A DNA stretch of 39,563 nucleotides from Thermoanaerobaculia bacterium. Its GTDB lineage: Bacteria; Acidobacteriota; Thermoanaerobaculia; Gp7-AA8. Below, piece after piece: positions 29,036-31,823 of the stretch; position 1 is the stretch's first letter; every line of letters starts with the position of its first letter. The stretch is from NCBI GenBank assembly GCA_017883235.1, contig JADGNY010000059.1, positions 1-39,563 of the forward strand. Reading direction: 5' to 3'. Position numbers and translations under genes: made by a program. The notes beneath the pieces were generated by a model. It was not told where the DNA came from, ran no database searches, and was given only the letters and a program-made list of their open reading frames with translations.

Positions 29036-29749
29036 TCAGCGCAGAACGCCGATGAGAACGGCGATCGGAAAGGAGATGTTCGCGAGCGTGACCACCAGGG
29101 CAAATACCGTCGCGAACCCCCGCTTCCACGAATTGAATCGGTCGTGGCTGAGCCCGAGCGAATTGAACATGCTCCAGAGACCGTGGTAGAGGTGCATCCC
29201 GAGCGCGAGATTGGCGACGATGTAGAACGCGCTCACCCACCAGACCTGAAAGCCGGTCACGAAGTTGTGGTAGACGTCGTGCTCGATGAAGTCCGGGTGC
29301 ACGGTGCCGAACGTCAGATGCAGCAGGTGGTAGATGACGAAGAGGACGATGATCACGCCGCCCCAGCGCATCGTCCGGGCCGCGTAGCCTGCCGAGACGT
29401 AATCGCGGTTCGCATAGCCGACCGGCCGGGCACGCCGGTTCATCAGGGTGAGCTGCGTGGCCGCCTGAATGTGCAGCCAGACCGCGATGAGCAGCAGCGC
29501 CCGCACGGCGTACAGCGCCCCCTTGGCCGGCAGCAGCGGGGCGCCCATGGTGATCAGAAACCCCGCGTAGGCGTTGTAGTGCTCCGGCCCGATGTAGACC
29601 TTCAGGTTGCCGGCCATGTGCAGGAAGATCCAGACGAAAAGGAAGATCCCGGTCACGGCCATGACAGCTTTTTTGCCGATGGCCGAGTGCCAGAAGCCGA
29701 GGAGCCAGGAAGCGCGAACGTTCGTTGTCGCGGGAGCTGCAGCAGTCAT
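29036..29749 (-). CDS. sdhC: Succinate dehydrogenase cytochrome b558 subunit
   Basis: A 237-residue membrane anchor with five predicted transmembrane segments, the single-polypeptide di-heme anchor of type B succinate:quinone oxidoreductases (TIGR02046-type). Histidines in membrane contexts that could bind heme b include H21 (GFWHSAIG), H44 (IFLHMAGN), and those in [19 protein letters not shown] and [12 protein letters not shown]. The operon order is C-A-B on the minus strand. The phosphohydrolase gene ends 43 bp upstream, so the operon might be transcribed with it or from a promoter in that gap. Confidence 0.94.
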
Positions 29750-29792
29750 GGCTGCATCATATCGATGATGGGTCGCCGGTCAAGGCTGGCCG

Positions 29793-31175
29793 TCACAGAC
29801 GGCTGCGTGCGATCCACTTCCTCACCTCGTCCCGCACGCGTAAGCCCGGCGTTTCCGCCGTGAGCCCCTCGAAAAAGTCGCGATATCGCGGCGCGGTCCG
29901 GGCCAGAAAATCAGTCGTGGCCACGCGGTAAGTGCCGGCCGGATCGATGATCTCCGGTCCCACAACGATCGCAAACGAATCGCTCCCCTTCCGCGAGTCT
30001 CCATACGCGAGGAGCTTCTGCACCGCGTCACCGCGCAACGAATAGACGACGATCTCGTTGTCGTATGGCATCGCAGCCCGCAACGCCTCGAGCGTGACAC
30101 GCCCGCGCGGAAGGGCCTGCCGGAAACTGCTGGCCGTCGACAACGCCACATCGGCGTGGACCGCATGGCGCATGATCTCGACAGACTTCTTTGCGAATGC
30201 CTCGACAGGCAACGGTGCATGCAACGTTCCGATCGTGGTGAACAACGGGGCGTATTGCGGATCGCGCTCGAGGTCGTGCTCCATCGTGACCACCCGTTGC
30301 GCGATCGACGCGTCTTTCGGCATGTGGGCATCGACAGGAACCAGCCTGCCAGTGACCCCGACCAGTTTGTGATCTTCGAATGTCAGCACGACGCGGCTGA
30401 TATACGTCAGGTACTGAAACGGCGAAATGAACCACGTCGGCGTACCGTCGATTCGCATCAGACCGCGCTTCAAGTGACTATGCGTACCGAAGATCAGATC
30501 GATGCCCGGGACCGAGCGTGCCAGCGCGAAGTCGTCGTCGAGATGTTCGTGTCCGATCATGACCACGACGTCGGCATGCTGTTTCTCGCGCAGGTCTCGT
30601 ACGGCGTCGCGGGCCGCGGGGACCGGATCGTCGAAATGCAGCATCGGCTCCTTGACGAGCGCCTTGAAGTCGCTGCCGGCGACCGCAAACACGCCCACGC
30701 GAATCCCGTTGACGACAAAGAGGCGTGACGGCAGAAAGCCGTTGGTATTGGCGCTCAGGACGGGATAACGGATCGCGTCGAGGCACGGCTGCATCTCGCG
30801 GATGCCGTAATCGGGATCATGATTGCCGAATGCCATCGCGTCGACGATGCCGTTGAACCACGGCCACTCGGCGCAACGGTATTTATCCGACCACGCCGGC
30901 GAGCCTTTGTTGACCATGTCGCCGCCGGAAAACACCAGCGCACCCCGCCGTTTCTCCCCGCGCAGATAGCCAATCGCCTTGGCGACGCCTCCCTGCGCTT
31001 CCCGTCCCTCGGAGTAGAACGGTAATGCGTGCGAGTGATAGTCGGAGAAGTGGAGGAGTGTTACGCGCGTCGTCCGGGCCTGGGCCGCCACGCAGACGAA
31101 AAGCAGCGGGAAAAACAAAGGGCGCCACGAGGAGCGCCCTTTGCCACAAACAGACGAGGATTGAATCTGAATCAC
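29793..31175 (-). CDS. Exported 5'-nucleotidase/UshA-like metallophosphohydrolase
   Basis: A two-metal phosphoesterase that probably removes phosphate from nucleotides outside the cytoplasm. Metal-binding motifs (numbered from GTG 31175) are D45/H47 (HFSDYHSH), D86 (SGGDMVNKG), N118-H119-D120 (FGNHD), GHEH and GTHSH. The C-terminal third (ALSTASSFRQALPRG, YDNEIVVYSLRGDAVQKLL) matches the nucleotidase substrate domain. A hydrophobic stretch LFFPLLFVCVAAQA forms the signal peptide. The start is doubtful: GTG 31175 overlaps the stop of the upstream gene (GTGA), but a terminator-like hairpin at 31111-31142 lies inside this N-terminal region. A TTG at 31118 would start right after the hairpin stem and still leave a short signal peptide. 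Confidence 0.87.
   Translation of the reverse strand: MIQIQSSSVCGKGRSSWRPLFFPLLFVCVAAQARTTRVTLLHFSDYHSHALPFYSEGREAQGGVAKAIGYLRGEKRRGALVFSGGDMVNKGSPAWSDKYRCAEWPWFNGIVDAMAFGNHDPDYGIREMQPCLDAIRYPVLSANTNGFLPSRLFVVNGIRVGVFAVAGSDFKALVKEPMLHFDDPVPAARDAVRDLREKQHADVVVMIGHEHLDDDFALARSVPGIDLIFGTHSHLKRGLMRIDGTPTWFISPFQYLTYISRVVLTFEDHKLVGVTGRLVPVDAHMPKDASIAQRVVTMEHDLERDPQYAPLFTTIGTLHAPLPVEAFAKKSVEIMRHAVHADVALSTASSFRQALPRGRVTLEALRAAMPYDNEIVVYSLRGDAVQKLLAYGDSRKGSDSFAIVVGPEIIDPAGTYRVATTDFLARTAPRYRDFFEGLTAETPGLRVRDEVRKWIARSRL
31111..31142 (-). terminator. Intrinsic terminator for the AT-hook gene
   Basis: On the minus strand a perfect 9-bp stem AAAGGGCGC/GCGCCCTTT with an 8-base loop is followed by GTTTTT. 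This is a textbook intrinsic terminator, 30 bp past the stop of the AT-hook protein gene. It lies inside the apparent first codons of the phosphohydrolase gene, so it would either separate the two transcripts or act as an attenuator. Confidence 0.75.
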
Positions 31176-31714
31176 CTGCCGACAGCGGACTTCATGGCGT
31201 TGATGGCTGCTTCGCGTCCTGCTTCTTTGGCGATCTTCTGAAACTGCCCGCGGCGGCTGGCCGGGATCTGCCGGATCAGGCCGAGATAGCGGCCCTGAAG
31301 CTGGCGGGAAGCCAACTGCTCCGGCGTAATGCGGGCGCGGCGGCGGCGTTTGACCGGTGCTACGGCGGCGGCTAGAGGAGCAGCCATTGGCGGCGCAGGC
31401 GCTGCCGCTTTGTTACCGCTTCCGGGCGGGCGTCCACGACGCTTGCCGCTTCCGGGCGGTCTTCCCGGCGGACGTCCGCGACGCTTGCCGGTGGTGGCAC
31501 CGCTTGTGGCGGCGGCCGGCGCGGCGACGCCTGCATGGGCACGCAGCGTCTGCAAACGGGACTCGAGATCGCTGATCTCGCGATGCATGTCGCTGACGTA
31601 GCGGTTCACTTCACTGGCGGAAATCCTACGATCGGCAATCAGGCAATCCAACACGTAGGATGCCTGTCCAGCGGACAACTGCGGAGGGGGGATATTCAGT
31701 CTGGGTCTTGGCAC
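31172..31714 (-). CDS. AT-hook, histone-like DNA-binding protein
   Basis: A 180-residue basic protein. Residues about 1-58 include a helical, partly coiled-coil section (SASEVNRYVSDMHREISDLE). The middle is an Ala/Gly/Pro-rich linker with two KRRGRPPG AT-hook motifs (77-84 and 91-98), which bind the minor groove of AT-rich DNA. Next comes KRRRRARITPEQLASRQLQG, then a basic helical tail ending AAINAMKSAVGR. This is a dimerising nucleoid- or promoter-binding architecture. The start is GTG 31714: AAGGAG at 31723-31728 sits eight bases upstream, better than the in-frame ATG at 31744. It is probably its own transcription unit, with a terminator right after. Confidence 0.8.
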   Translation of the reverse strand: MPRPRLNIPPPQLSAGQASYVLDCLIADRRISASEVNRYVSDMHREISDLESRLQTLRAHAGVAAPAAATSGATTGKRRGRPPGRPPGSGKRRGRPPGSGNKAAAPAPPMAAPLAAAVAPVKRRRRARITPEQLASRQLQGRYLGLIRQIPASRRGQFQKIAKEAGREAAINAMKSAVGR

Positions 31715-31728: not shown

Positions 31729-31823
31729 CTTGTGCGTTCTGCACATCGATCTGTGCATGCTACCAGAAATTTACAACGGCGGCGCAATAAGACATCGATA
31801 ACACCCCGGAACTAACGGTCCCG

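Follow-up and report, generated by a model that had tools for sequence, protein, structure and literature searches.

On the minus strand of the window, the whole 39,563-nt stretch that was analysed, an AT-hook protein gene (31172..31714) is followed directly by a gene for a metallophosphoesterase of the 5'-nucleotidase type (29793..31175; Pfam Metallophos and 5_nucleotid_C). The next gene downstream is sdhC, coding for the membrane subunit of succinate dehydrogenase (29036..29749; Pfam Sdh_cyt at 25.3 bits against a cut-off of 25.8). The name AT-hook protein is our assumption from the RGRPPG repeats of the product, for which no Pfam family match was obtained. Its GTG start at 31714 is backed by a conserved MPRPR start in the family alignment and by AAGGAG upstream, recognised by eye, and the gene ends with TGA at 31174-31172. 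Just 5' of this start, near the likely transcription start, lies an inverted repeat TGCACA-6-TGTGCA (31740-31757, minus strand). Halves resembling GCACA/TGTGC were seen by eye at the same place relative to the gene in G001, G002, G012, and G003, and the repeat is possibly an operator. The favoured start of the phosphoesterase gene, GTG at 31175-31173, overlaps the AT-hook stop as GTGA; no clear Shine-Dalgarno sequence was seen by eye before it.

Past the AT-hook stop, a hairpin with a T tract was identified at 31111..31143 (minus strand) by folding, by a strict terminator scan, and by covariation. Its 5' arm CAAAGGGCGC (31143-31134) and 3' arm GCGCCCTTTG (31125-31116) form a perfect 10-bp stem with seven G-C pairs around the 8-nt loop TCCTCGTG (31133-31126), and TTTTT (31115-31111) comes directly after the stem. 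The first-pass annotation had described a 9-bp stem 30 bp past the stop; the hairpin itself was found as described, with a stem that measures 10 bp owing to an extra outer C-G pair and begins 28 nt past the stop. The 38-nt RNA of 31111-31148 (minus strand) folds at -21.5 kcal/mol, compared with -10.5 +/- 2.2 for shuffled versions (z -5.05), and none of 200 shuffles folded as well. In 342,845 bases of the same genome, made up of the window and twenty contig stretches of a 6.9-Mb genome, the strict scan (perfect stem of at least 8, T-rich tail) gave seven sites with this hairpin among them; two dinucleotide shuffles of the sample gave none. The hairpin is absent from the output of a generic terminator scanner, in our view probably since that program extends the stem via G-T pairs into the T run. 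A G+C-rich stem with a short loop, an adjoining U tract, and a conserved place after the gene stop are the features of an intrinsic terminator, and all of them are present here.

The AT-hook gene was detected, at an E cut-off of 1e-12, in 16 of 148 genomes of the class: 15 of the same family, the window's genome (G000) included, and one of the same order. The stretch past its stop was read in 15 of the 16 genomes, with G006 left out. Nine of them (G000, G001, G002, G003, G009, G010, G012, G016, and G017) have a GGCGC...GCGCC or GCGCT stem and a T-rich tail after the stop. By eye, the stem of G018 differs and comes with seven T, G005 and G014 carry G+C hairpins but few T, the inverted repeat of G007 and G008 lacks a T run, and a longer A+T-rich inverted repeat in G013 has no T run following. 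Across the nine genomes, 94.4% of the cells of a 12-pair stem are paired, a figure favoured by the choice of these genomes for their similar stems. Five of the 12 pairs are altered on both sides, the covariation score was reached by none of 500 shuffles, and sliding the pairing partners lowered it from 0.350 to at most 0.188. The hairpin is confirmed as real and beyond chance. The z of -5.1, the lack of sites in both shuffles of the genome sample, and the covariation across nine genomes make it very improbable that this is a chance stem without a function in termination.

The terminator is kept in G012, although the phosphoesterase gene lies about 400 bases further along, and also in G010, where the 255 bases from the AT-hook stop to the contig end are without a phosphoesterase gene; that gene is on another contig of G010, near that contig's end. 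Because it is kept without an adjoining phosphoesterase gene, the hairpin is, judged by its conservation, the putative intrinsic terminator of the AT-hook gene itself. Genera in which the AT-hook frame ends in TAA or TAG, and no start overlaps this stop, conserve it as well. The first-pass annotation had called the hairpin an intrinsic terminator, and the comparison supports this in all three members of the window's genus (G000, a soil-type bacterium, with G001 and G002 as its two nearest relatives).

Two other hairpins of the same genome, at L074 15579 and L092 18880, are strong terminators located a short distance ahead of the gene that follows. The former lies between a skp-like and an lpxD-like gene with TACAAT before the ATG, and the latter between an rpmA-like and an obgE-like gene (gene names by eye). 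A crude gene caller placed both inside genes; this was rejected, as they look like ordinary terminators with the lpxD-like or obgE-like ATG downstream. The plan of a terminator, a short gap, and the next gene start may be recurrent in this genome.

The phosphoesterase gene is directly downstream of the AT-hook gene in seven genomes (G000-G003, G009, G016, and G017). In 3/3 members of the window's genus, the GTGA overlap is present and the phosphoesterase frame crosses the hairpin free of stops, an argument of modest weight with three members only, as the phase would agree by chance in about one case in three, to which the absence of stops is added. The window's spacer between GTGA and hairpin exceeds that of G001 and G002 by 6 nt, and the frame is still open; from AT-hook stop to stem we counted 22 nt in G001 and 24 nt in G002. 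Read from GTG 31175, which is 32 nt before the stem, the hairpin occupies codons 11-20. In G002, the codons that precede the hairpin show poor conservation. Counts for codon positions 1, 2, and 3, made with the gap placed by hand, are 3, 1, and 6 for G000 versus G001, which favours coding, and 6, 5, 5 and 5, 6, 3 in the two pairs with G002, which does not.

A different start would lie in or after the hairpin, at TTG 31118 (31116..31118, minus strand; codon 20, within the 3' arm) or at a non-standard codon, with an unrecognised promoter of its own, and the frame from GTG 31175 would then be accidental. Open frames are common in GC-rich DNA, the codons poorly conserved in G002 fit this reading, and TTG is found in G000 and G001. 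In G002, the TTG is absent and there is no ATG, GTG, or TTG from the overlapping GTG to the end of the hydrophobic core, the next GTG standing where the signal peptide ends. TTG 31118 cannot be a shared start, because G002 offers no inner start codon. The window has no TANNNT box within the 200 nt before and the 120 nt after GTG 31175, and neither TANNNT nor a related box was found near the phosphoesterase start in any of the three genus members; two TANNNT boxes in G001 are more than 120 nt upstream, inside the AT-hook gene. The first-pass proposal of a start at about 31118 from an own promoter is not borne out by these three species. It is possible that an unrecognised promoter lies within the 3' end of the AT-hook gene.

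In sister genera, a start of that kind, with an own promoter after the terminator, is seen with ATG. G003, G009, G016, and G017 have an in-frame phosphoesterase ATG after the terminator, and in G003 and G017 a TAGACT/TACACT (TANACT) box stands 8 nt before it, which also speaks for an inner start in the window. In eight of the ten non-genus loci inspected (L004-L012 and L014, with class member L013 and more distant loci excluded), a TANNNT box lies 6-10 nt ahead of an in-frame ATG or GTG. The two loci without a box belong to species of genus g8 (G009 and G016), and their ATG comes directly after the T-rich tail. In the window's genome, 21 of 147 genes have TANNNT at -16 to -11 of the first ATG, where about 4 are expected; the background in the same 147 genes is about 0.7 per position at -80 to -40. 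A TANNNT box before the start is the mark of leaderless genes. Such genes are predicted at 9.7-19.4% in 3/3 Acidobacteria genomes, with the signal about 10 bp before the start (excerpt of PMC3160421). Most phosphoesterase genes of the sister genera and sdhC fit this description, whereas the phosphoesterase gene of the window is without a box.

Given the starts assigned to the other proteins, an N-terminal extension of 16 residues in the window and 14 in G001 and G002 is unique to the window's genus in the protein alignment. The first-pass annotation had named relatives that keep the first 19 residues and lose the hairpin as the case that would speak against it; the opposite is seen, as sister genera keep the hairpin and, with starts as assigned, lack the additional residues at the N-terminus. 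In assigning these starts, we passed over an in-frame GTG that G003, G009, G016, and G017 have in the hairpin 3' arm. The 3' arm (GTG CGC C..) of these four genomes (L007, L010, L009, and L006) is in the same stop-free phase to the phosphoesterase frame. Coding through the terminator as a state ancestral to all genera is possible and was not adopted. Counted together with the window's genus, four lineages would share one phase by chance in about 1 of 27 cases, and promoter boxes follow the terminator in G003 and G017.

With the start at GTG 31175, the stem and T tract read K-G-R-S-S-W-R-P-L-F-F, with Phe-Phe from the T tract, and the n-region and hydrophobic core KGRSSWRP-LFFPLLFVCVAAQ occupy 31080..31142 (minus strand). 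From this putative start, the protein would have a candidate Sec-type signal peptide, with an n-region of charge +3, a core LFFPLLFVCV, and an AQA site recognised by eye. The n-region charge with the GTG start is +3 in the window and G001 and +2 in G002. A start at the TTG, itself within the stem, would give no basic n-region (charge 0 in the window and G001). By a crude count, the n-region charge is +2 in four relatives and 0 in G016, and the charge argument against TTG is weakened because the family includes this start without net n-region charge. Weighing these points together with the missing TANNNT box and the absence of inner start codons in G002, we consider an inner start with its own promoter unlikely. 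The enzyme is most likely made by read-through of a leaky terminator with the start at GTG 31175, as far as the sequence can tell.

The possibility of a signal-peptide n-region encoded in the bases of the terminator, raised in the first pass, is supported by the comparison of all three genus members. Tentatively, and at somewhat less than even odds, the terminator may have been taken over as coding sequence, with the stem and T tract spelling the n-region and the first hydrophobic residues of the signal peptide and with enzyme output dependent on leakage of a nucleoid-type protein's transcript past the terminator. The phase of the 3' arm is common to 7/7 genomes in which the two genes are linked, giving Arg, then mostly Pro, then Phe or Leu from the T tract. 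Terminators in this triplet phase may be ready-made starts of signal peptides.

Downstream, a promoter-like element TTGACC-16-TATGAT (29756..29783, minus strand) stands 6 nt before the sdhC ATG at 29749, and the same element is 6-7 nt before this ATG in 3/3 species of the genus. Matches of this kind number two in the region against 3.0 in shuffles, which makes a match alone meaningless; the evidence for the element as a putative promoter is its position and conservation. The gap between the phosphoesterase gene and sdhC is 43 bases in the window and about 240-250 bases in G001 and G002, each different-looking. By eye, the gap in G002 (L003) contains a short repeated unit like agagaccagagac, and that in G001 (L002) is a different stretch of more than 200 bases. 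The first-pass annotation had the hairpin attenuating read-through into both the phosphoesterase gene and sdhCAB. The first part is plausible; attenuation of sdhCAB was rejected in view of the conserved element before sdhC and of the gaps in G001 and G002, which differ from each other.

The explanation that fits best, to which we give a probability of roughly 0.6, combines a terminator of the AT-hook gene, loss of the phosphoesterase promoter, a GTG start, and read-through that sets the ratio of AT-hook protein to enzyme. It is built on what the DNA itself displays: the terminator, its conservation, the overlap with an open frame in three species, and the lack of a promoter box near the start. 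Ancestrally, the terminator would have separated the AT-hook gene from a phosphoesterase gene that had a leaderless promoter of its own. This promoter would have been lost in the window's genus, where the frame now presumably opens at the GTG on the AT-hook stop and crosses the terminator. Most AT-hook transcripts would stop at the T tract, at about 31111, and a minority of read-through transcripts would carry the phosphoesterase gene, resulting in a high AT-hook:enzyme ratio. The pair has the overlapping stop and start looked for in coupled genes, and coupling is putative here. The enzyme would be translated for the most part by ribosomes that restart at the GTG after completing the AT-hook frame, and the product would be exported via the hairpin-encoded signal peptide. 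Extending the excerpted account of PMC4824070, a ribosome that restarts on a terminated transcript would reach the end of the message without meeting a stop codon.

How much of the transcript passes the hairpin may be judged by E. coli rules, which may differ in Acidobacteriota. In tests in E. coli, a terminator kept its full strength when it lay more than 27 nt past the upstream stop; where a start codon preceded the terminator by 30 bp, translation from that start cost it only about 10% of its efficiency (PMC4824070, as excerpted). By analogy, the terminator of the window, at 28 nt, should mostly work, and those of G001 and G002, at 22 and 24 nt, could be somewhat leakier. The hairpin could also be a regulated attenuator, in which ribosomes that have restarted at the GTG move into the hairpin and block termination, so that output depends on coupling or a signal. 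The GTGA overlap in 3/3 members suits this, as does the stem of the window just past the limit of about 27 nt for hindrance by a stop-bound ribosome in E. coli (same excerpt), and at the shorter distances of G001 and G002 some ribosome hindrance is expected. Such control is nonetheless quite improbable given the small loss at 30 bp past a start codon and the conservation of the terminator where the AT-hook stop is TAA or TAG and no start overlaps it. The enzyme level would be governed by leakage; a switch driven by translation is possible and not favoured.

Terminators predicted in coding regions are already known (PMC4824070, as excerpted), coupled ribosomes that override intrinsic terminators are reviewed in PMC7858274 (as excerpted), and terminators within operons are known to set expression ratios (PMC9045158, as excerpted). 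Among the matches listed, the open-licence literature had no example of a signal peptide encoded by a natural terminator. According to the excerpt of PMC9045158, terminators in the operons of ABC importers of cellulolytic Clostridia likewise lie between adjacent genes of the same strand, an arrangement in which partial read-through would give unequal expression. Those stem-loops are intergenic with measured read-through, while the hairpin described here is within putative signal-peptide codons and is known from sequence. The tR2 terminator placed 30 bp after a start codon has a spacing similar to the 32 nt found here; that construct is engineered with the upstream stop further away, whereas the present arrangement is natural, occurs in three species, and has stop and start overlapping (excerpt of PMC4824070).

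If true, this would be a traceable case of a regulatory RNA element that turned coding while retaining its first job. Possible intermediates would then be present in living relatives, as terminator-promoter-gene, as a terminator directly followed by a start codon, and as a terminator inside the gene. It would also be a warning for gene callers and signal-peptide predictors, as such a start would look wrong though comparison backs it. The arrangement opens no new kind of system.

Translational attenuators, of which trp is one, are a further point of comparison. As in trp and in pyrBI (the latter mentioned in the excerpt of PMC4824070), translation near the terminator hairpin could likewise affect read-through here. 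In contrast to attenuators of the trp/pyrBI type, the locus has no separate leader peptide, and the coding frame that would cross the hairpin is that of the enzyme itself.
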